DNA of 20,292 bases from a virus. Position 1 is the stretch's first letter. Each line of letters opens with the position of its first letter. The notes under the pieces are model-generated. The model searched no databases and had not been told where the DNA came from. It saw only the letters and a program-made list of their open reading frames with translations. The DNA lies in IMG/VR virus record IMGVR_UViG_3300010299_000084, positions 1 to 20,292 of that record, one strand, 5' to 3'. Shown in pieces: positions 1 to 14,947 of the stretch. Both the position numbers and the translations under genes were made by a program.

Positions 1-108
1 AGGTCTCCAGTCCGTTTGGTTTCCCCAGTGATCTGCGATATTATAAACCTCAAAGAGACTTCTCTCTTGGTTTAGATAATCTTGTTCGTTTTTATTCCAC
101 TGAGCCAT
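1..108 (-). CDS. Partial CDS, N-terminus only; terminase large subunit gp17 by position (unproven)
   Basis: An ATG at 108-106 opens 36 codons that run without a stop to the window edge, so only the N-terminus is visible. It starts MAQWNKNEQDYLNQ and continues with an LFEV motif and a Trp-containing stretch ending TDWRP. It begins four bases after the stop of the 100-residue gene, in the same late operon. In T4-like phages the large terminase gp17, the packaging ATPase/nuclease, follows small terminase gp16, so gp17 is the positional expectation. No ATPase or nuclease motif falls inside these 36 residues. The 'NQxRSLFEV...AD..GN' pattern also resembles the N-termini of some marine phage virion proteins. 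That the fragment is coding is well supported; its identity is inference. No clear Shine-Dalgarno is seen upstream. Confidence 0.5.
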   Translation of the reverse strand, partial: MAQWNKNEQDYLNQERSLFEVYNIADHWGNQTDWRP

Positions 109-112
109 AACT

Positions 113-415
113 TTAGATCCAATCTAACTTTGCTGGATGATATCTCTGTGCATTTTTAATTTTGCTTGAGTCAGCACCAGGATAAATGTTATGAACAATA
201 GCACCAGGGTATTCTCCCTGAATATGCTCTGCTAATTCATTTTTACTCATCATACTGCCTTCTACTTCTAAACGATAGAGTTTACCCTCCCAAACAACAT
301 CAGCAAAGAAAGATTCTTTTGCCTCTTCTGGTTGAGAACCTCCTACGTTTAAGGTTCCATTAAAGTCACCGTTGATGGTGATACTTTCGGAAAGAAATTG
401 TTGAAAACTTTTCAT
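113..415 (-). CDS. 100-aa protein with capsid-targeting-like leader; candidate packaged internal head protein
   Basis: Function is not established. The first ten residues, MKSFQQFLSE, match the T4 internal-protein capsid targeting sequence (MKTYQEFIAE) by identity or conservative change at every position. The next residue is Ser, compatible with cleavage by a gp21-type prohead protease after Glu10. Residues 12-27 form a Gly/Asn/Thr stretch. Residues 36-80 form a compact alpha/beta domain with W-x-GK-x-Y near 42-47 and YPGA...YPG at 69-80. The same domain occurs at residues 300-347 of the upstream 490-residue protein. The ATG lies one base after that gene's TGA (TGATATG), which suggests translational coupling. 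Being a packaged, processed internal protein is inference from the leader and the setting among assembly genes. A cytoplasmic accessory protein remains possible. Confidence 0.75.
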   Translation of the reverse strand: MKSFQQFLSESITINGDFNGTLNVGGSQPEEAKESFFADVVWEGKLYRLEVEGSMMSKNELAEHIQGEYPGAIVHNIYPGADSSKIKNAQRYHPAKLDWI

Positions 416-416
416 A

Positions 417-1889
417 TCAGCAGTTCCAAGCTCTAAGGGACTTATTGATTCTGCTATCTGGATCGCTAGCAGTTTTGGCAGAAGTGAGTTTCTTCTTCAT
501 ACCTTTCATTCTTGCACAGAAAGATGCGCGACGCTTATTTCCAACCTTCTTAGAAGGTGATTTTAAATCACTACCAGGATTCTCACGCTCATAAGACTTA
601 CGACCCTTCTCGTTTAATCCACCAGAAGGGTTTTTACCTGCACTACGAGTCCAGGCAGCAGATTCTTGTTGTTGGACTTGAACATCACCACTCTTCTGTT
701 TAGCAGACTGAGCAAGACGTTTCTTTGCTTGTTGAGTCTTTCTAAGGTTCAGTGCAATTTGTTGCTTCTGAAGTTGGATATCTTTGGGATCCATTTGGAC
801 CTGTTCAACCTTTGTCATAAAGGTTGGTTTGGTCGGATCATTCATTGAAGGATAATATGTTTGAAGCAATGCTCCTGGATAGACTTTATTGACAGCATCT
901 TGAACTTCTTTCCGTGTGGGAATTCTTAAAGAAGGGAAGAAGATCTGAATAGAGAACATCTTCCCACGGAAATTAAGATAGACGGTTACCGTTTGACCGT
1001 TCTGTGTGGAAATCCGAGTAGCAGCCTCATCGAGAGATGAACAATTTTCGTGTTCCAGATCCTGTCCATAATCGTTCTCCTTGACACAACGATTGTAGGT
1101 CTTACCGAAGAGTTTCTGCGTGCCTACTTTTTTGTATCCCTTCCAGCACTTCTTGCCTGCTTCATTGATATCAATCATACCACAATTTTCAAGAGCAGCA
1201 ATCTGTGCTGGTGTGAAACCTTCCTTCTTGGTGCTGTTGCCCCAATTTGAAGCACCTTTCTTACGACACTTAACTAAAGCACCAGAAGCATATGCGCTAG
1301 GCCATACCTTATAACGAGACTTTACTTTGTGATAACAAGCATCCTTCTCACCCTTTGCTTCGTATTGAACTTCCTCTGGGAATGGATTGCCAACTGTATG
1401 CTTTGCTTTCTTGGTTACCTTGTCGTGAGCAGCAATGCTACCCATCTGACTGTCTGCATAATCTTTGCCAGCAGTCTTAGATCTCTTTGTGGTGCTCAGT
1501 TTAGGACCTTTCTTCTTCTCGCCAACCTTTCCTTTGGTTCTAAACTCCTTCTCACTTTCTTTTTCTGCTCGCCTTTCTTTTGCAAGCATTCTACGATATT
1601 CATCTTCGTGGATGATTGCTTCAGTCTTCACGTTAATTGCCTTCCCTGATCTTTCTGGATTTGGATCTTTTTTGTTCTTGCGACGAAACGCTGCTTCTTC
1701 TTCATCTTTAGAAAGAGAACGTTTCATTTTTGAAGAACCACATTTAGGTTTGGTTGTTTGACCTGGTTGTTTGGCACACGGTTTTCCAGCATATTTCCCA
1801 CCAAGTTGAACCCAACCTGGCTTACCATCAGAAGACTTACTCTTACTGAACCAATCGTGTAAAGAAGAATCGCCAGACTTAGAAGCCAT
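417..1889 (-). CDS. 490-aa Cys/Lys-rich modular protein of unknown function (DUF6321-like ends)
   Basis: This is a very basic, modular protein with no enzyme motif that I recognise. Residues 1-90 hold a Gly/Lys/Cys module with LHDWFSKS, GWVQLGGKYAGKPC and a second Cys at 50. Residues 91-165 are a highly charged linker. Residues 184-217 carry a Cys module (CYHKVKSRYKVWPSAY, then GALVKCRK) and 247-270 carry CWKGYKKVGTQKLFGKTYNRC. Residues 300-347 repeat the domain of the downstream 100-residue gene. Residues 365-410 are Gln/Lys-rich and probably helical. Residues 423-490 end in GGLNEKGRKSYERENPGS and SFCARMKGM and resemble DUF6321-type C-termini, from memory of that family. Cysteines at 38, 50, 185, 208, 248, 268, 458 and 490 could bind metal, but spacing does not fit a textbook zinc finger. 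A late promoter box lies 24 bases upstream. It may be a virion or DNA-associated protein; this is inference. Confidence 0.8.
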   Translation of the reverse strand: MASKSGDSSLHDWFSKSKSSDGKPGWVQLGGKYAGKPCAKQPGQTTKPKCGSSKMKRSLSKDEEEAAFRRKNKKDPNPERSGKAINVKTEAIIHEDEYRRMLAKERRAEKESEKEFRTKGKVGEKKKGPKLSTTKRSKTAGKDYADSQMGSIAAHDKVTKKAKHTVGNPFPEEVQYEAKGEKDACYHKVKSRYKVWPSAYASGALVKCRKKGASNWGNSTKKEGFTPAQIAALENCGMIDINEAGKKCWKGYKKVGTQKLFGKTYNRCVKENDYGQDLEHENCSSLDEAATRISTQNGQTVTVYLNFRGKMFSIQIFFPSLRIPTRKEVQDAVNKVYPGALLQTYYPSMNDPTKPTFMTKVEQVQMDPKDIQLQKQQIALNLRKTQQAKKRLAQSAKQKSGDVQVQQQESAAWTRSAGKNPSGGLNEKGRKSYERENPGSDLKSPSKKVGNKRRASFCARMKGMKKKLTSAKTASDPDSRINKSLRAWNC

Positions 1890-1911: not shown

Positions 1912-2226
1912 TTATTTATCTTCTTCTCTCTTCTTATTTCCATTGCATCCATTATTATTACCATTGCCATTACCATTGCCATTATTATCACCCTTCTTAG
2001 TTGGATTGACTCCAAAGGTAGCAAGAGTCCCAGTAAAAATTGAGGCAATAAAAGTAGGATCAATCTTTTGTTGGGGAATGCCAGGAATTGTAATGTAGTT
2101 CAGTGTCAAAATCGCACCAGACCATCCAAGAATAACCAATCGTACAAACATAGCAACACCCTCTTCGTGCCAATCAAATCCATCGTCTTTTTTGTTATTC
2201 TTTGTCAACTCCTTTCTTTCTTCCAT
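1912..2226 (-). CDS. Small two-helix membrane protein; holin-like candidate
   Basis: The 104-residue protein has a charged N-terminal tail (1-22), a hydrophobic segment at about 23-47 (containing FVRLVILGWSGAILTLNYI), a short Pro/Gln/Lys turn, and a second hydrophobic segment at about 58-73 (TFIASIFTGTLATFGV). It ends in an Asn/Gly repeat and a charged KKREEDK-type tail. Two membrane helices with a charged C-terminus is a common holin architecture, but I do not recognise the family and no lysin lies in this window. The start is well supported: AAGGAGA at 2239-2233 stands six bases before the ATG. The gene overlaps the 3' end of small terminase gp16 by 32 bases in another frame. Alternatives are a membrane anchor for assembly or a lysis regulator. 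Confidence 0.75.
   Translation of the reverse strand: MEERKELTKNNKKDDGFDWHEEGVAMFVRLVILGWSGAILTLNYITIPGIPQQKIDPTFIASIFTGTLATFGVNPTKKGDNNGNGNGNGNNNGCNGNKKREEDK
1913..1920 (-). promoter_or_regulatory. Candidate T4-type late promoter box (GATAAATA)
   Basis: The minus strand reads GATAAATA, one mismatch from the T4 late -10 box TATAAATA. It overlaps the TAA stop of the membrane-protein gene (1914-1912) and lies about 23 bases upstream of the ATG of the 490-residue gene at 1889. This is the same arrangement as at gp13. The same octamer also occurs once inside gp8 coding, so the match alone is weak and position is the main support. Confidence 0.5.
1957..1980 (-). repeat. Perfect tandem duplication of a 12-bp unit (ATTACCATTGCC on + strand)
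   Basis: Two exact copies of the 12-mer lie head to tail, flanked by imperfect ATT-rich extensions. On the coding strand they encode Gly-Asn pairs at residues 83-90 of the two-helix membrane protein. Such short in-frame repeats are prone to slippage, so the length of this hydrophilic tail may vary between relatives. Confidence 0.85.
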
Positions 2227-2635
2227 TGTCGATCTCCTTTAGCATTTTTTGAAGTTCTGCTGTTGATCCAACAAAAAGTGCATTAGTGACGTTGGTAGGA
2301 CCAGTTACCTTCTTATCATCATCCAAATCCTTCAATTTCTTTTGTAAATCCATCAACTTGTCTGTAGCATCAGACACATTCTTGATCAATTGACCAGCCA
2401 CTTCATATGCTCTAGGCATTTCACTTTCTTGGGCAAGTTCAAGAATACCATTAATTGCTTCTTGACCTTTTTCTATAATCGAATAAAGATTCCCCCGTGT
2501 GTAGTCGTAATCTTTTTTGATGTGGTCAATATTATTTAAGTGTTTTTCAATTTTGGCATCAACGTTCTCTTTTGGCATTGGGACAATATCTGCCTCAACG
2601 TCAAACGCATTATTCAATTCACTATAATCAGGCAT
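2195..2635 (-). CDS. gp16: Terminase small subunit gp16
   Basis: At 146 residues it is close to T4 gp16 (164). The small terminase forms a ring that recognises concatemeric DNA and stimulates the large subunit gp17 during head filling. Two stretches align with T4 gp16 as I remember it: the central helical part (EMPRAYEVAGQLIKNVSDAT, about residues 72-91, against DSPRHMEVFATLMGQM) and the C-terminal NALFVGSTAELQKML (against NATVFMGSPTELMDEI). The region from about 30 to 115 is mostly helical with coiled-coil character, as expected for the oligomerising core. The start overlaps the gp15 stop as TAATG, and an AGAGGGT element lies seven bases upstream. The position directly after gp15 is the T4 order. 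Confidence 0.9.
   Translation of the reverse strand: MPDYSELNNAFDVEADIVPMPKENVDAKIEKHLNNIDHIKKDYDYTRGNLYSIIEKGQEAINGILELAQESEMPRAYEVAGQLIKNVSDATDKLMDLQKKLKDLDDDKKVTGPTNVTNALFVGSTAELQKMLKEIDNGRKKGVDKE
2233..2239 (-). promoter_or_regulatory. Strong Shine-Dalgarno (AAGGAGA) inside gp16 coding
   Basis: The minus strand reads AAGGAGA six bases before the ATG of the 104-residue membrane protein, within the last codons of gp16. Most other starts in this window have no such clear site, so it fixes this start and suggests independent, efficient initiation. Confidence 0.8.
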
Positions 2636-6643: not shown

Positions 6644-9600
6644 TTAAACAAGAGCAATAACTTTCAGACCAGTGAGTCTTGGGGGATCTGCCTGGTTTCT
6701 AGCAGCACACATAATCTTAATCTTGAACTGTTGGAATGGTGCTTGATCATCAACACTAAACTTGAAGGTTTGGAATTCATCCTTCTCCGATCTAGGAACT
6801 CTTTGATCGGGTCTACCATCATTGCGAGCTTCATCAATGATCAATCCCTTAGAATCGATATTCAGATAACCTGGGAACATTGTCCACATTCCATTATCTT
6901 CAGCACCAGGACTTACGATATTGTAAGCACATCTGATATCAGCACCAGGCGGGAAGTATGCTTCAAGTCTAACTTGAAGTGCAGTTGCTGATGTTGGGAG
7001 ATCAAGAACTTTAGTTACATAAATGAATTCGTGATCATCAGTGCCTTTACCTCTCAAGATTCTCTTGTTGTTCATATAATTGTTATTGTTATATGGACGG
7101 TTGATAATATTATCGGTAAGAATAACAGCAGCTCTATCCAGATCAATCACTGGAGAGATCTTGTCATCAGCACTTTCGAGAGTTACATCCATTGTAAATG
7201 ATCTCTTTCCTGGGAAGGTAGTGGAATCAAGTTGACGAACTTCGTTCAATCTTGAAGCAACCATTCTCTCAGTCTTCAGTTCATTAATAACACCCCATTC
7301 AATTGGTTCATAATCAGCATCCTGGAATGAGTTTTCATTTCCATCAATACTTGTAGCAGTAATGGATCTGAGTCTTCCGCTAATCTTAGTATTCGGGAAT
7401 ACTAACTGATGGAAGTGTGGGGTAACTGCAGAATATGTCCAGTTTTGTGTCAAGATACCCTCGTCTCCGCCACATCTCTTGCCCTTTCTGAATGTGAGTC
7501 TTGGGAAAGATCCATCAGCAGAACGATCAATACCCTTCTGAGTTAAATCAATGTCAATATCAAAGAAGTTGTGATCTGATCTAAAGTTACGATTCTCGCC
7601 TGTAATAAGATTAGGAATCAAGTCGTGTTCGGTATTAATTCTTCTCAGAGAAATACCATCAAGTTCATATTTCTGAATCTCAGATCCCTCTTCGTGATAT
7701 GCTCTTCTTGTGAAGTCAACACCACGAGCAGTGATACCAACAAGTTTCTGACCATCAACACCAGTATATTCAATAACTTCATCGTCGATAATTACATATC
7801 CAGGATTAGTTGTACTAACGCCAACTCTCTCAAATGTATTGAAGATATTCATAGAACCTGTTACGGTAATATCAGCATTTCCTGCAGAATCAACTTCATT
7901 AGTAATTTTTCTTGGTCTCGAATCTGGTTCAATACCACGAAGTCTCACTCTGTTGTCTCTGTCATACATACCGTGACCTCTGGCATAGACTCTGATAGTC
8001 TCGCCTCCGTGATACGAATACTTATTGTATGCAGAAATACCAATACCGCTAGGAAGGAATTGTAACACTCCATCACCATCTCTATATGACAGAGAGGAAG
8101 CAGATCCAGTTGCTCCTGTATTAGGAACACCATAAACATCAGTTACTCTCAGAACAACGTTGGAACTTACTCCAGTGACGCGAGCCAAGAAGTCTCTACC
8201 AAGTTGACCATCTCCGATTGATCCGATGGAAGCAATACCAACTCTTTCATTAAGTTGCCAATCAGAACCACCATCAGTTACATTAATCTGAGTAATAGCA
8301 CCATTAGTGACGGTAACATCTGCTAACAGACCTGTTCCTTGACGGTGACGAATGCCCCAAGCATTGAGGGTTGTCAGAGCAACACCAACATAAGTCTCAA
8401 TACCACTGCTAGGAGTAAATCCAATACCAGCCTTGATAATTGTGATTGAAGTTGTGCCAAGAGCAACGCCACCTTCAGACCTTGCAATAACTGCTCTAAA
8501 GTTTGGATTCGCATTCTGTCTAATAATAGTACCACGCTTCAGCAATAATGCCTCTGCATCGCTCAGTTTTTCTGACAGAACGACTTTACCTGCTTGAGGA
8601 AGAGTTCTGATTGGATTGTCATCAAGCGAGACGATACCTCTATTACCTCTATTAAGTGGAGTGTTATAGAAAGTAGCAGTTCTTGGATTGCTAGTATCAA
8701 ATCTCGCTCTATAGAGAGTCCACTTGAGATCTTCAAGCAAACTAGGTGTCCAAGCTCCTGCTGCTTGTGATCTGAACAGTGCTCCTGACAGAGGTTGTTG
8801 TGCAATCTTACGACGATTTACACGACGAACTGCTCTCAGATAAACTCTTCTTCTTCTACCCGTTCCTCTCTTTTCAAGTCTCAGGCGGAGACCTCTGCTA
8901 GTTTCTACGAGACGACCACGAACTCTGAATTCAGCACCTCTGGCAAGATCTCTTCTTCCAGCATCTGTATCAACTCTAGCAACAATACCACCAGGACCAG
9001 GAAGATTGCGAACATTTCTAAGTCTATCGACAAATTCACCACGCTCCTGAATAGCAGCAGCACGAGAAGCACTGAGTCTTCTTCTTTCTTGTGCAGTGAG
9101 TCTAGTGTAGTCAACATAACCAGCAGTTCTAACGAATACAGATCTGCCTCTGTTATCTCTCAGAACTTCATCATCTCTGATGGTAATGTCAATCTCACCA
9201 ACTCTTGAAATCCATACTCTGTATCTTCTTGAATCTGTATCAAGAACCAGAGCATACTCCTTACCACCTTCCAGATAAATTGGTTCTTCAAAATCAACTT
9301 CAGTCTTATTTCTAGCATAGCGAGATCTACGAATATCGTCGGGTGGAATTTCTACCCTAGATCCTGGGATCACGTTATCAGTTGGAACCCCATTTTCACA
9401 AGTACGAAGTTCGGCAGTAACACTAAATCTGTTGTCCTTTCTCTGGAAGTAGAGATCAAACTTAGTTACAAATATTCCTGGAGTTTCGTCAACAGTAAAT
9501 GTTTGTGCCAGTGGATCTCTAAAGTATCCTTGCTTGACGAGTCTTCTACCAATAGCAACTCTTCTTCTCTCTGCTCTAACAGCAGATTTGTAAAGAATTT

Positions 9601-12600
9601 GTCCAGCAACTTTAAGAGCTCTCGCAGCAAGAACTTTGTTTCTTACAGCAGCTCTCTGTCCTCTACCAGCAACACCAAATGTATTTGGGTTAGCAGCATT
9701 ACCTGTCAGCAGGTTGATTTGCCTTCTAAGTTGGTTTCTAGCAATTTTATATTCTGCTCTATGTTTTCCAACAAAGACTTTGTTTAACCATCTGGATTGA
9801 TATTTGTAAACTGGATGTAAACCAGTATAGACTGGTGTCACCTTATCAACCTTACCATCACACAGAACCAGTGCCGCTGCTTCTGTTCTAGGTCTTACTC
9901 TCCATCTGTTGACTCTGCTAGCAGACAGTCTAAATTCGACCAGACCAGACTTGAACTTTCTTGGTTTCCATCTTGGATTTGGAATAAAGACAGACAGGTC
10001 AATTACGCCTCCTCTTCTGACCTTGAGGACTCTGTTAACAACTCTGGCAACGGCACCTGAAGTCTGACCCTTAAGAATCATTCCAGGAGCAATGTAACCA
10101 TAGAATCTTGGGTTTCTTGAACTTGAGAGAGTTGCCAGGTCAACGTTGATGAAACGTGAAGATGCAGTATAATTCTTAGGAATGATTCTGTTTCTTCCAT
10201 ATCCAGTTCTTCTATAAGATAAACCAAGCTTGTACTTAGTTCCTCTTAGAGCTGGATTGCGTCTCCAAGCACGAGTTTGTCCCGTTCTGATGTTGCCATA
10301 TCTATGTCTAGGATGTGCAACCCTGAAGACGATCTTGGCATTTCTTCTAGGCCAACCCCATCTCCATCTTCTCCTTGGCATATAACCAATAACTCTTTCA
10401 CCAATTCTAAATACACCTCTCTTCATTCTGATTCTGACAAGTTTAGGAGTTGTAAAACCTGTCATCTGTTTGTCGTTAATGTAGCACCAGACTCTGGCTC
10501 TCGGTCTCATCCGAGTTCCTCTTAATCTGAAGTTTCTGCTTCTGATAAATCTGGTTCCAGTTCCTGATGCGAGATACTTCTCTTCAATTCCACCAAGGTT
10601 CTTGTTAATAGCACCACGAAGAGCTTTTCTAGCACGGAAAGCAGCAATACCAACTTTAACGTGAGCAGCTGCTCTTGCTCTTCTAACGGCTGCTCTAGCA
10701 ATTCTACCGACATTTCCTTTCTTATCATTCCACCATTTTGGAATTCTTCTTCTATAACCTTTTCTTCCTCCAATGGCCCTAACTCTTCTAGCAAATCTTT
10801 GTCTACGACCAATAACCTCGTCTAACCAAGCACCCCAAACAATTTCATTATATCCAATTTGTGCTCCTTTACCAACAGAGAGTCTAAGTGCTTTGAAGTC
10901 ACCATACAGTTCGGCATTTCTAACTTTGAATCTCTTGGTAGAAACCCAGTTATCTGTTCTTGGCCATACTTGCAGTTTGCCAAACCAATATGTAATTCTG
11001 AAAGGATTGATCCTCACAGTTCTAGAGGCAAAAGGATTGCTAAGATACTCAATCTCTTCATAATCGAGAGTGAGAACATCACCCGTTCTTCTCAGACCCT
11101 CTGGGGTCTCACCCTCATCAGAATCATCAAAGTCAACTACTTGAATATCATCTTTATCTCTTGTGCTGTCATCGTCATCTTCATCTGTGATGATTCCATC
11201 TTGAGACAACTGCAACGGAAGCATTCTTGTAAAGTGCTTCGGTCTACATTCACCTTCCTCTTTATCGAGAGAAGCTTTGAACTCTGGGTCTTCCTGATCA
11301 GCAGTTAAGAAGTCTTGGAAGGTATCTACAATAACACCAGCCTTTGGTCTTTCTACTGGAGCAGGAGCAACCTCAGCACCACCTGAAGGATCATCCTTGT
11401 CTGCTTTAATCAGAGTCGTGATCTTGAGGTTCATTGCCTCCTGCTCTTCCATCAGGAGTTTATAATAATATTCGAGTGCCTTGATTCTTCTCTCAAGATC
11501 TGCGATATCCTTCATCGTATAACGCTTATGCTCAGAGAGCGTAATCGTTGCATCATCTACATCAAACAGATATGCTGGGAGACCAATGGAAGCAACCTCC
11601 ATTGCACCGCCATCAAGTTCCTCAGGAAGTTCTGGATCTTCTGCAGATTGTCCCTTAACGACCTGGAACTCACCCTCTGGTGTCAAATACAGTCTGTCAA
11701 TTCTAGACAGATAGTAATCATATGTTACCGTGATCTGTTCATCTGAAACAAGAATGTTCGGTGCAGAAAGACCAGCAACAGCAAAGTTTCTGCTCTTTTG
11801 ATCCAATGGAGATAGAGTGCTACTCAGATCATAAGCACCGACTCTTGGGCGATAGTCAATAATATCGCATTGTCTTACATCTTGAGTGAATCCAATTTTA
11901 TCGCCATAGAATTCTTGAGCATAACTCTCTACAGTGATCAGCTCTCCAGTATCTCCCTCTTCAATATCAAAGGTAGAGTAGATAATAGTCAGTCTATTAT
12001 CGGGAATTGCAAGACCCTTCTGTGCTTGACCAGCAGTCGGAATAGATCCGTCTGTCTTTGTTTCAACTCTTTCAAGAACTCCATAATTCATGAAGTCTCT
12101 CTTACGACCTTGATTCAGTTTATACTGATCTTTAATATCTTTGGCACCCTTCGTGAAATCTTTGCAAAGACCACGAACACCAGACTTACTTGCTCTAACT
12201 TGTTCTCCGTCTCTTAATTCACCATCTGAGAGCATTACAACTCTAATGTTGTTCGCATCATCAATTCTTACAACAAGAGCAACTTCTTCACTAGTTTCTC
12301 CGAAGAGTTCCTCACCAACAAGAAGATCACTCGTATCACTATTTGGACCATTCAGAGTATCAAACTCAACCTTCGGAAGATCTGGATCATCAGCATCATT
12401 TGATTCAATAACTGCCCAGATATCAACAACGTCTGGTTTCAGAAGACAGATTCTGTCATCTTGAACTCTTGTTCCATATGCATAATTTGCATCATAAATC
12501 AAACCATCATTCAGTGTGGTACTACCGATACCAGAAGCGGGGTTTGTGGATCTATTAATAGTAAGAATATTTACTGGATTAAAGATCTTTTTCTTTGCCT

Positions 12601-14947
12601 TAATATTGAACTTTTTCTGAGTAGCATATGCAATGGCATTTGTGTCTTCAGTTTTAGAAAGACCAACCAGTGTAACGCTCTTTCCATCAGTTGAAATTGA
12701 TACGTTTCCTCTGCTAAGAGGTTCAATGGTTCCGTCAGAATATGACAGAAGATATCTATCTGGTTGGAATGGTTGGAAGAAGAAGTCTGTTTCTGCTGTT
12801 GGCAGAGATGCTTGGTTTGCTGAAACAGAAACTGCACTATAGAATTTTCTGACAAAAATATCTGAACCATTCAGTTGAAGATTATCTGCAGGAGACTTGT
12901 GAAGAATCTCATACAGAGTATTCTCATCTTTTGGTTCATACTTTGCTCTAGGAGCAATAAGTTGAGTAACCTTGGTTGGAATTGGGGGCAATCCACCTTG
13001 GAATAACTTACTTACCGTTGTTACACCAGTAATTTCAACTTTGTATACACCTGCCTCAGACTTCGATGTACCAACAACAGAAGTCAGAGTTGGTTCGGTA
13101 TTTCCCTCAAGTTTAAAGGAGAGAAGAGTACCAGCTGTAGTCAGTCCAATTGGACTTGTGCTTGTAATTGTAGCGATACCACTGATAGAATCAGCAGCAC
13201 TAACGGTGTACTCTTCGTTTAAGAAGACTTTTTGTGCTCCAAGAACCAGATCAGCATTAAACGTGTTAATACCAACTGAAGAACCTTGGAAGACAGACTT
13301 TGCTTTGTTGATATCGTATGATTCAAACTGAGCAACGCTAATGGCATTATCGTCGCCATTAATCTCAATAGTTTCTCCCTGCTTGAAAGTTCCCTCAGCA
13401 GCTCTAATAGTAACAGTGAAACCAGTTCCTACAGGTCCAACAACAAATCCACCTGCTCCACTAGTTTCACCCTCAATGTGAGTACCATCACTTAAACCTA
13501 GTTCGTCAATCTCACCATCAAATGTGATCTTTGCATAATTGTCAATATCGAAGAGACGCAGAGAATATTGTGTAGTTTGATCTTCGTGGATACCATCTAA
13601 GAGATGGAAGTCATATACACGAGCTTCACCAATTACGTTACCAGAAGCAGTCGTGCTAACACTACCAACCAGTGCGTCGCGGAACTGCAGCGTGATTGTT
13701 GTTCCAAAACCAACGACAGGAGCTCCAAATACGTTGTGAACTCTGACTACTGGTCCAACATCAATTGTTACTTGCTCAAGTTCAACTGTAGAAGTATCTC
13801 TTGGTTTATTAACGTCAACATTACTGGTAGATAGTTTTTCAATTTCATATCCTTTTACATATGCCTTTCCTGCACCAATTTCATATACCATCAACTCATC
13901 TGATGGTGTTGCCCCTTCATCAGTTTCTTCAGTTGGTTTGAAAACACCATCATTTCCTTTGAAGTCGTTCAGCGACTCTTCTACTTCAAGGGTAAATGGT
14001 TTTACATAATAATTACCACTCTCATCATAAGTCCTACGAGCCATTTCATCCCGAATGTGCTTATACATCGGGTTTGCAGCCTGGAATTCTTGAACTTCTC
14101 CGTCCTTAATTCTCATAATTTCGACGAAGTTTGCATCGTCGAAATCATCAATATCCTTTCTTCCTAAGGTAGCTTCGATTCTTAATCTATCAGCACCAGG
14201 AGCAGCATAGTTGTTAAATCCCTGAGCATTATCAAGCAGAGATTCATCATCATAAGCTGTTACAATTTCTTCCTCAACAAATAAACCAACCCTGTGTGAT
14301 CCATCATTTGAATACTGTTCGAGAACAATTGACTGTTCATCAATATCACAGAAATGACCTCTTAAGAAATAAATGCCATCTTGGATCTCAACCGCAGATC
14401 CCTGTGCAACAGCATTGTTTGAAATTAACTTTGCAAATGGAGATCCTACAGGAATGACATTTCCAGCATACTCAATGCTAGACTCTGCAAGAATCAGGTT
14501 CTCGCCATCTTTAAATGACTGATTGTTACCCTCATCATCGTCCCCATCATCTTCCATTTTGACGTAGAGGGTTGTAACTCCTCTCTCAGATGATTCTGCA
14601 AAGAGAAAATCTACAACTTCAGCTTCTACAGTTGAAGTAGCACCCTTGATCTTAATTTCGTCTAATTGATCAAGATATGTTTCAACATCAACCCCATTGA
14701 ATTGAGATTCAATTTGAACTGCTGTATATCTGTTATTATATGATACGTTTCCAGGAATTACCTTAGAACCTTCTTTAAAGAAGTGGTTGCCAAACTGCTC
14801 AATTTGGTTTTGAAGCATTGACTGAACATTGTTCAGTTCACGCGCCTGAACAGGGTGAGCAGGCTTAAAAAGAACCCGATAGAACTTATCATCGGGATCA
14901 AAATCATCAAAATATGGGTTGAAATTGAGGTTAGTTCTGAGGGGCAT
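6644..14947 (-). CDS. Giant DUF4815-type virion structural protein (baseplate/fibre) with Arg-rich segments
   Basis: The 2767-residue protein occupies the position of T4 genes 9-12. The N-terminus has the DUF4815 pattern (LNFNPYFDDF, FYRVLFKPAHPVQARELNNV, QNQIEQFGNHFFKEGS). A conserved YYLSRIDRLYL is near 1075, a coiled coil (YTMKDIADLERRIKALEYYY) at about 1146-1181, VDTFQDF near 1210 and an Asp/Glu tract at about 1255-1285. Residues 1353-1808 are extremely Arg-rich yet keep family-like motifs (FIRSRNFRLRG, GYIAPGMILKGQTSGAVA). FRDPLAQTFTV...GIFVTKFDLYF (1808 onward) and PIYLEGGKEYALVL return to normal composition, followed by a second Arg-rich insert (about 1921-2046), then SGALFRSQAAGAWTPS. 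The C-terminal part carries a VIIDDEVIEYTGV module near 2380. It starts five bases from the gp8 stop. Host contact or baseplate periphery is inferred. Confidence 0.88.
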   Translation of the reverse strand: MPLRTNLNFNPYFDDFDPDDKFYRVLFKPAHPVQARELNNVQSMLQNQIEQFGNHFFKEGSKVIPGNVSYNNRYTAVQIESQFNGVDVETYLDQLDEIKIKGATSTVEAEVVDFLFAESSERGVTTLYVKMEDDGDDDEGNNQSFKDGENLILAESSIEYAGNVIPVGSPFAKLISNNAVAQGSAVEIQDGIYFLRGHFCDIDEQSIVLEQYSNDGSHRVGLFVEEEIVTAYDDESLLDNAQGFNNYAAPGADRLRIEATLGRKDIDDFDDANFVEIMRIKDGEVQEFQAANPMYKHIRDEMARRTYDESGNYYVKPFTLEVEESLNDFKGNDGVFKPTEETDEGATPSDELMVYEIGAGKAYVKGYEIEKLSTSNVDVNKPRDTSTVELEQVTIDVGPVVRVHNVFGAPVVGFGTTITLQFRDALVGSVSTTASGNVIGEARVYDFHLLDGIHEDQTTQYSLRLFDIDNYAKITFDGEIDELGLSDGTHIEGETSGAGGFVVGPVGTGFTVTIRAAEGTFKQGETIEINGDDNAISVAQFESYDINKAKSVFQGSSVGINTFNADLVLGAQKVFLNEEYTVSAADSISGIATITSTSPIGLTTAGTLLSFKLEGNTEPTLTSVVGTSKSEAGVYKVEITGVTTVSKLFQGGLPPIPTKVTQLIAPRAKYEPKDENTLYEILHKSPADNLQLNGSDIFVRKFYSAVSVSANQASLPTAETDFFFQPFQPDRYLLSYSDGTIEPLSRGNVSISTDGKSVTLVGLSKTEDTNAIAYATQKKFNIKAKKKIFNPVNILTINRSTNPASGIGSTTLNDGLIYDANYAYGTRVQDDRICLLKPDVVDIWAVIESNDADDPDLPKVEFDTLNGPNSDTSDLLVGEELFGETSEEVALVVRIDDANNIRVVMLSDGELRDGEQVRASKSGVRGLCKDFTKGAKDIKDQYKLNQGRKRDFMNYGVLERVETKTDGSIPTAGQAQKGLAIPDNRLTIIYSTFDIEEGDTGELITVESYAQEFYGDKIGFTQDVRQCDIIDYRPRVGAYDLSSTLSPLDQKSRNFAVAGLSAPNILVSDEQITVTYDYYLSRIDRLYLTPEGEFQVVKGQSAEDPELPEELDGGAMEVASIGLPAYLFDVDDATITLSEHKRYTMKDIADLERRIKALEYYYKLLMEEQEAMNLKITTLIKADKDDPSGGAEVAPAPVERPKAGVIVDTFQDFLTADQEDPEFKASLDKEEGECRPKHFTRMLPLQLSQDGIITDEDDDDSTRDKDDIQVVDFDDSDEGETPEGLRRTGDVLTLDYEEIEYLSNPFASRTVRINPFRITYWFGKLQVWPRTDNWVSTKRFKVRNAELYGDFKALRLSVGKGAQIGYNEIVWGAWLDEVIGRRQRFARRVRAIGGRKGYRRRIPKWWNDKKGNVGRIARAAVRRARAAAHVKVGIAAFRARKALRGAINKNLGGIEEKYLASGTGTRFIRSRNFRLRGTRMRPRARVWCYINDKQMTGFTTPKLVRIRMKRGVFRIGERVIGYMPRRRWRWGWPRRNAKIVFRVAHPRHRYGNIRTGQTRAWRRNPALRGTKYKLGLSYRRTGYGRNRIIPKNYTASSRFINVDLATLSSSRNPRFYGYIAPGMILKGQTSGAVARVVNRVLKVRRGGVIDLSVFIPNPRWKPRKFKSGLVEFRLSASRVNRWRVRPRTEAAALVLCDGKVDKVTPVYTGLHPVYKYQSRWLNKVFVGKHRAEYKIARNQLRRQINLLTGNAANPNTFGVAGRGQRAAVRNKVLAARALKVAGQILYKSAVRAERRRVAIGRRLVKQGYFRDPLAQTFTVDETPGIFVTKFDLYFQRKDNRFSVTAELRTCENGVPTDNVIPGSRVEIPPDDIRRSRYARNKTEVDFEEPIYLEGGKEYALVLDTDSRRYRVWISRVGEIDITIRDDEVLRDNRGRSVFVRTAGYVDYTRLTAQERRRLSASRAAAIQERGEFVDRLRNVRNLPGPGGIVARVDTDAGRRDLARGAEFRVRGRLVETSRGLRLRLEKRGTGRRRRVYLRAVRRVNRRKIAQQPLSGALFRSQAAGAWTPSLLEDLKWTLYRARFDTSNPRTATFYNTPLNRGNRGIVSLDDNPIRTLPQAGKVVLSEKLSDAEALLLKRGTIIRQNANPNFRAVIARSEGGVALGTTSITIIKAGIGFTPSSGIETYVGVALTTLNAWGIRHRQGTGLLADVTVTNGAITQINVTDGGSDWQLNERVGIASIGSIGDGQLGRDFLARVTGVSSNVVLRVTDVYGVPNTGATGSASSLSYRDGDGVLQFLPSGIGISAYNKYSYHGGETIRVYARGHGMYDRDNRVRLRGIEPDSRPRKITNEVDSAGNADITVTGSMNIFNTFERVGVSTTNPGYVIIDDEVIEYTGVDGQKLVGITARGVDFTRRAYHEEGSEIQKYELDGISLRRINTEHDLIPNLITGENRNFRSDHNFFDIDIDLTQKGIDRSADGSFPRLTFRKGKRCGGDEGILTQNWTYSAVTPHFHQLVFPNTKISGRLRSITATSIDGNENSFQDADYEPIEWGVINELKTERMVASRLNEVRQLDSTTFPGKRSFTMDVTLESADDKISPVIDLDRAAVILTDNIINRPYNNNNYMNNKRILRGKGTDDHEFIYVTKVLDLPTSATALQVRLEAYFPPGADIRCAYNIVSPGAEDNGMWTMFPGYLNIDSKGLIIDEARNDGRPDQRVPRSEKDEFQTFKFSVDDQAPFQQFKIKIMCAARNQADPPRLTGLKVIALV
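8812..9185 (-). other. Second Arg-rich insertion in the giant structural protein
   Basis: It covers about residues 1921-2046, between the conserved VGEIDI strand and the conserved IAQQPLSGALFRSQ motif, which I expect to lie close together in relatives. It includes LTAQERRRLSASRAAAIQER and EKRGTGRRRRVYLRAVRRVN. The first half looks helical and the second basic and beta-rich. The insertion status rests on remembered family pattern, not on an alignment. Confidence 0.55.
9525..10890 (-). other. Arginine-saturated region of the giant structural protein (about residues 1353-1808)
   Basis: In the 73 residues from VIGRRQRFARR to GAINKN I count 18 Arg and 7 Lys against a single Asp. Other blocks read MPRRRWRWGWPRRNAK and RAERRRVAIGRRLVK. 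Most Arg codons are AGA. The frame is correct because family-like motifs occur both inside and immediately after this segment in the same frame. Confidence 0.85.

Follow-up and report, generated by a model that had tools for sequence, protein, structure and literature searches.

A probable T4-type capsid targeting leader on a conserved 100-residue protein and on unrelated virion enzymes of T4-like cyanophages

The first ten residues of the phage T4 internal protein IPIII suffice for its packaging; within this capsid targeting sequence (CTS), residues 4 and 7 govern targeting, residues 8 and 10 govern processing, and the protease gp21 cuts after L/I-x-E (PMC9026906). CTS-like sequences are already known in close relatives of T4 (PMC9026906). 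Among cyanophages, virion proteomes report NMNAT and SAM hydrolase, and the choice between cargo and carry-over was left open (PMC9602691, PMC10665884). Our literature search found no paper that describes a leader of this kind in cyanophages or prints its sequences.

The window, that is, the whole stretch of DNA analysed here, is a 20,292-base IMG/VR fragment of a T4-like cyanophage. Profile and Pfam matches identified gp8, gp13, gp14, gp15 and gp16 on its minus strand, followed after gp16 by a 104-aa DUF6450 protein, a 490-aa basic protein, a 100-aa ORF and the start of a structural protein. Between the stop codon of the 490-aa gene and the start codon of the 100-aa gene there is a single base. 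The genes for gp16, gp15, gp14, gp13 and gp8 lie upstream of the 100-aa ORF, which agrees with the claim of a preliminary description of this DNA that the ORF stands among packaging-stage genes. A gene at 108..1 was considered as gp17 and rejected, its orthologs marking it as a virion structural protein, one of which (S-SZBM1_190) was detected in virions. A 2767-aa ORF at 6644..14947 (-), between gp8 and the gp13 region, is strongly R/K-rich in its middle. The features of the 100-aa ORF and its flanking genes are as follows.

1..108, minus strand: virion structural protein, first 36 codons (MAQWNKNEQDYLNQ...); orthologs S-CAM9 gp158 and S-SZBM1_190
113..415, minus strand: 100-aa ORF, phrog_1742, ATG start; reads MKSFQQFLSESITING...
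116..313, minus strand: mature domain, residues 35-100; predicted beta-beta-alpha-beta fold, phrog_1742
314..385, minus strand: predicted disordered segment, residues 11-34 (SITINGDFNGTLNVGGSQPEEAKE), ending in the conserved E34; pLDDT about 40-45 over residues 1-30
383..388, minus strand: putative gp21-type cleavage site E10/S11 (P3 Leu8, P1 Glu10); fits L/I-x-E, with the P1 Glu invariant
386..415, minus strand: capsid-targeting-like leader MKSFQQFLSE, residues 1-10; conserved in homologs, its pattern also found on unrelated proteins
2195..2635, minus strand: gp16, terminase small subunit, by profile and Pfam matches; context

The leader MKSFQQFLSE was compared with the T4 CTS MKTYQEFIAE, taken as reference from IPII and IPIII in the T4 record. 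The two share M1, K2, Q5, F7 and E10 and differ by the exchanges S/T, F/Y, Q/E, L/I and S/A, and Ser directly follows Glu10, all as the preliminary description had claimed; its placement of leader and serine at 382-415 was correct to within a base, the leader occupying 386-415 and S11 383-385. The positions that govern T4 targeting carry F/Y at 4 and F at 7, and those that govern processing carry I/L at 8 and E at 10.

Ten residues are few, and the resemblance to T4 could in principle be coincidental. The leader was therefore written as a codon pattern, M K [STRCW] [FY] x x [FY] [LIVMF] x E, which matched 37 sites in 19 phage genomes and contigs, whereas neither the reversed nor the permuted pattern matched any site (0 and 0). 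Because of these counts, the leader is not a chance occurrence, and coincidence, against which the mostly synonymous drift and the S-CREM2 virion enrichment described below also speak, can be taken as already refuted and has a very small probability. The T4 matches to the pattern were IPII, IPIII and gp61.1. The last of these (NC_000866 18966-19130 (-), 54 aa, hypothetical) starts with MKTFKEFIKE, a perfect match, and short proteins similar to gp61.1 occur in L107, L126, L171 and L206.

The 100-aa protein matched phrog_1742, a family listed in the library with function unknown, over residues 1-94 on profile positions 1-98 of 108 (E 2.8e-37), and a Pfam search of the protein gave no family. A search for relatives that was independent of the leader returned 135 phage records, all of them cyanophages, and these align from residue 1 even at 42-50% identity; the IMG/VR set is partly leader-dependent, with MKSFQQFL among its seeds. 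In 13 annotated genomes, the phrog_1742 gene sits between packaging and structural genes, usually immediately behind a DUF6321-type gene, and in most of them immediately before the same virion structural gene. Among 59 distinct aligned homologs, M1, F7 and E10 are invariant, only F or Y occurs at position 4 and only L, I or M at position 8, and positions 5 and 9 vary. The 60 distinct 33-nt leaders translate into just 18 different 11-aa peptides, and synonymous change is free, including AGY/TCN serine switches; the leader peptide is therefore under purifying selection. Against our preferred reading, conservation continues just past the proposed E10 cut at about the level of the leader, with no sharp change at the proposed cleavage site. 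Further on, E34, the last residue ahead of the folded domain, never varies in A1 and hardly ever in A2, where L61 and E63 also show high conservation. A gp21-type protease (Peptidase_S77) is encoded in 14 of 14 isolate genomes and in 5 of 5 contigs over 100 kb carrying the phrog_1742 family; this evidence comes from relatives, and, again against our preferred reading, the 20-kb window shows neither gp21 nor gp22 of its own phage.

Next, the leader pattern was set against published virion proteomes. In S-SCSM1, the strict pattern matched one other gene start, at 88819. It belongs to NMNAT, a protein that mass spectrometry had identified in virions purified on CsCl and that the authors of the proteome could not assign to either cargo or carry-over (PMC9602691). 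S-CREM2, with 219 genes and 52 proteins detected in virions (PMC10665884), was searched with a looser pattern and without use of the proteome coordinates. The annotated ATG starts matched were those of a SAM hydrolase/lyase (ORF6), ORF136 and a cytidylyltransferase (ORF154), and all three proteins are among those detected in virions (p=0.013); allowing GTG starts added the kinase ORF14, likewise in virions (4/4, p=0.003). A wider rule, set after the sequences had been seen, added ORF13 (detected) and ORF175 (not detected), giving five of six. One further match, at 132446, was rejected as a leader gene, lying inside nrdA at no gene start. The cytidylyltransferase of S-SZBM1 virions begins with MRFRQFIIE, followed by A. 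The leader therefore predicts virion presence for several unrelated enzymes.

Other leader-like sequences were noted in the same phages. The leader stands on NMNAT/cytidylyltransferase in S-SCSM1 (NC_070962.1 88819-90048), S-SKS1 (NC_020851.1 73234 (-)) and S-CREM2 (OR473000 124608), and also at Syn9 149735 and S-SSM5 148916, both assigned by position. S-CREM2 (L262) has leader-like starts on its virion-detected SAM lyase ORF6, 78-aa ORF13 and kinase ORF14. Its virion-detected, Cas9-annotated ORF12, for which a Pfam search gave no match, has RFASFMAE followed by A about 20 residues in and KTFRDFLN at its C-terminus. S-SCSM1 (L250) gp281 NMNAT and S-CREM2 ORF12 and ORF14 have in common a short post-leader stretch resembling KAxxLGLxxDGHGxW, which may be a further element for packaging or an adaptor. 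The virion-detected, 69-aa gp279 of S-SCSM1 (91626-91835) has a leader-like motif at its C-terminus, KKRTFKEFLEYIE.

When IMG/VR was scanned with a narrower form of the leader pattern, the matches listed showed the leader on many unrelated proteins. Among those matches, 49 mutually dissimilar proteins have only the leader in common (mean column identity 6%), so that at least 49 IMG/VR proteins stand beside the 37 sites in 19 genomes as unrelated carriers of the same leader. Represented among these carriers are SAM lyases, methyltransferases, DUF6321 proteins, a GNAT and an ART-PolyVal ADP-ribosyltransferase. High-potential iron-sulfur-like (HiPIP-like) proteins (PF01355) were also seen behind the leader in L222 (S-SRM01 47292) and L147. 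Judged from their domain matches, the SAM lyase, ART, GNAT, methyltransferase, DUF6321 and HiPIP-like proteins would suit a role as delivered effectors and are candidates for one. In L118, L123, L168, L177, L209 and L215, two to five genes whose bodies are unrelated stand in tandem, each behind an MKTFKQF-type leader; these runs are candidate cargo islands.

The neighbouring 490-aa protein contains several modules that are found elsewhere as separate proteins behind the leader.

417..1889, minus strand: 490-aa basic multi-module protein, pI 9.9; orthologs in virions are S-SCSM1 gp029 and S-CREM2 ORF137
426..638, minus strand: DUF6321 module (Pfam), C-terminus of the 490-aa protein
801..1028, minus strand: internal phrog_1742-like domain, about residues 288-363 (phrog_1742 E 3.4e-5)
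1026..1034, minus strand: LDE/A junction just before the internal domain (residue 288), candidate gp21 site
1161..1169, minus strand: INE/A junction before the GKKCWKGYKK module (residue 243), candidate gp21 site

DUF6321 stands alone behind the leader in L132, L157 and L212, the GKKCWKGYKK (CWxGYKK) module does so in L123 and L215, and the phrog_1742-like domain forms a separate leader-bearing protein in phage Sf-FS3 (L224). The motif [LIVM]xE immediately precedes the fused domain in 26 of 29 distinct copies, compared with 4.8% of other positions, and the strict [LI]xE in 10 of 29, compared with 2.0%; the 29 copies are related and hence not independent, and P2 and P3 vary while the motif persists. 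These junctions in DUF6321 proteins suggest that a multi-module precursor may be processed in the head. For the cluster of the 490-aa protein, GC119, the records give the note 'similar to Synechococcus phage S-SM1 protein', apparently a label for proteins detected in S-SM1 virions. Near residue 541 of the S-SZBM1 multi-module protein (PP650_gp082, L096:254-2377, 707 aa) lies TYREFIAE, an internal sequence that closely resembles the T4 leader and stands exactly at the alignment point of the standalone leader proteins. The detected 87-aa S-SZBM1_195 was considered as the tail of the leader-DUF6321 gene and rejected, gene order showing a separate gene at 125377-125640.

Because of its conservation, the pattern counts, the virion-borne leader enzymes, the protease and the [LIVM]xE junctions, the leader is most probably a working T4-type CTS. 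A further-reaching possibility, with a probability of roughly 0.45, is that this one conserved leader is a general delivery tag of T4-like marine phages for varied cargo that is released at infection (NMNAT, SAM lyase, kinase, ADP-ribosyltransferase, acetyltransferase, HiPIP-like proteins and the beta-beta-alpha-beta domain), and that the same modules are also strung together in one basic precursor cut by the head protease in the prohead, the 100-aa and 490-aa proteins being the single and the strung-together forms. During head assembly, the leader would bind the growing prohead core (a gp22-like scaffold), thereby enclosing the 100-aa protein; a gp21-type protease would then cut after Glu10, leaving a mature protein of roughly 90 residues inside the head, with residues 35-100 folded. 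The mature product would survive in the mature head, be released into the host at infection and act there. The 100-aa protein would thus belong to a wider group of packaged proteins sharing this leader or gp21-type junctions, among them NMNAT/cytidylyltransferase, SAM lyase, kinase and multi-module DUF6321 proteins.

Detection in virions is reported for other leader proteins and not for the 100-aa protein itself. Its S-SCSM1 ortholog is annotated as hypothetical and has no virion label, both of its neighbours being labelled 'virion protein', and its S-SZBM1 ortholog is not in the 30-protein virion list of that phage, nor is the leader-bearing DUF6321 protein of S-SZBM1. Absence from S-SCSM1 is weak evidence, because that ortholog can yield only two tryptic peptides of 7-30 residues, but absence from S-SZBM1 counts, because the ortholog there can yield six. 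The proposal in the preliminary description of a packaged internal protein stands as regards the leader, which behaves like a T4-type CTS, and is left without a counterpart among the reported virion proteins of S-SCSM1 and S-SZBM1. The 100-aa protein may be scarce, may have been missed or may be consumed in maturation.

The last of these would make it a core component that enters the prohead and is cut by gp21 after E10, perhaps also at E34 or L61-x-E63, its pieces leaving the head and never reaching the host. T4 core proteins do likewise, for example most of gp22 and gp67 (PMC9026906), and both the absence of orthologs from the two virion proteomes and the conservation of E34, L61 and E63 fit such a fate. 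However, the 100-aa protein has one well-predicted folded domain, the same domain occurs in the 490-aa-type protein whose orthologs stay in virions, and shallow proteomics could have missed the 100-aa protein, so that we consider consumption in maturation unlikely. The missing virion reports and the position of the gene between gp16 and a virion structural protein gene would also suit a leader that is neither a packaging nor a cleavage signal, being instead a conserved amphipathic N-terminus for some other assembly contact (e.g. at the neck or portal, near gp13-gp15). The same leader is nevertheless borne by NMNAT, SAM lyase, kinase, ART and HiPIP-like proteins encoded at a distance from the neck genes, and it matches T4 at positions 4, 7, 8 and 10, which makes such a contact improbable.

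The structure of the 100-aa protein was predicted with AlphaFold2. Residues 1-31 were disordered, and a beta-beta-alpha-beta domain began at residue 35, right behind the conserved E34; a domain-only model gave the same fold as the full-length model. Foldseek and VIA-align searches of the mature domain returned no significant fold (best E 0.09, no Z >= 5). With both models, the Foldseek match of highest probability was T7 Gp2 (probability 0.99, E 0.10-0.15), followed by YkzG, an RNAP-binding protein; the VIA match to Gp2 was also weak (Z 4.5-4.8, rmsd 2.3-2.4 over 48-49 residues). Matches at a similarly weak level comprised Gp2, YkzG, phi29 p6 and p56, and ribosomal and phycobilisome-linker domains. 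FrCas9 also came up (Z 4.8, rmsd 4.8) but was discounted because its alignment is scattered. The modelled domain thus weakly resembles T7 Gp2, which we treat as a lead only, because the fold is small and common.

This lead bears on an extension of the CTS reading, in which the 100-aa protein would be an injected anti-host factor, for example a small RNA-polymerase-binding protein acting in the first minutes of infection. Other leader cargo resembles enzymes of host take-over or of defence against restriction (SAM lyase, ART, GNAT), the leader-bearing SAM lyase is present in S-CREM2 virions, and the highest-probability Foldseek match, T7 Gp2, is a host RNA polymerase inhibitor. However, for the fold matches E is near 0.1 and VIA Z does not reach 5, on a par with phi29 p6, as befits a common small fold, and the Gp2 score is not far above those of ribosomal and phycobilisome-linker domains. 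The gene is moreover syntenic and well conserved, unlike the variable T4 IP genes, which looks more like a structural or assembly role. An anti-host factor of this type is possible though somewhat doubtful, and the same holds for delivery of the 100-aa protein to the host together with an anti-host role, as the preliminary description had suggested, which is plausible but unproven.

Compared with known systems, the 100-aa protein is closest to T4 IPI, IPII and IPIII in its 10-residue leader, with the same kinds of residue at positions 1, 2, 4, 7, 8 and 10, in the gp21-type cut after Glu10, proposed here likewise, with the protease encoded by cyanophage relatives, and in its size, the T4 IPs being small cargo as well and IPII also having 100 aa. 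The mature domains are unrelated in sequence, and the T4 IPs are basic, whereas the mature 100-aa product is acidic (pI 5.0, net charge -5). The T4 IP genes are not highly conserved, whereas the 100-aa gene is conserved across cyanophages in a syntenic place from gp16 to the structural gene; and the T4 IPs are packaged, whereas the 100-aa protein is known here from sequence. T4 Alt, a packaged and injected ADP-ribosyltransferase, is head-packaged and gp21-processed by a comparable route, and leader-bearing ART-fold proteins exist in IMG/VR contigs (L177), but the 100-aa protein has no ART domain. T7 Gp2 has a small beta-beta-alpha-beta arrangement like that of the mature domain, without sequence relation (E about 0.1, Z under 5), and to our knowledge it is not a head-packaged, leader-bearing protein.

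The virion NMNAT/cytidylyltransferase (S-SCSM1 ORF91, S-CREM2 ORF154, S-SZBM1_140; T4-GC190) has the same type of leader and is found in purified virions, but it is an enzyme of 286-409 aa unrelated to the 100-aa domain. The T4-type leader likely explains its repeated presence in cyanophage virions, and the occurrence of this leader on exactly NMNAT and SAM hydrolase is a specific, testable answer to the question of cargo or carry-over. The T4 system is most probably extended in this way to cyanophages, with a wide range of cargo and possibly a processed multi-module precursor, and with the leader one can list, from sequence alone, the cargo that may enter marine picocyanobacteria with their T4-like phages.
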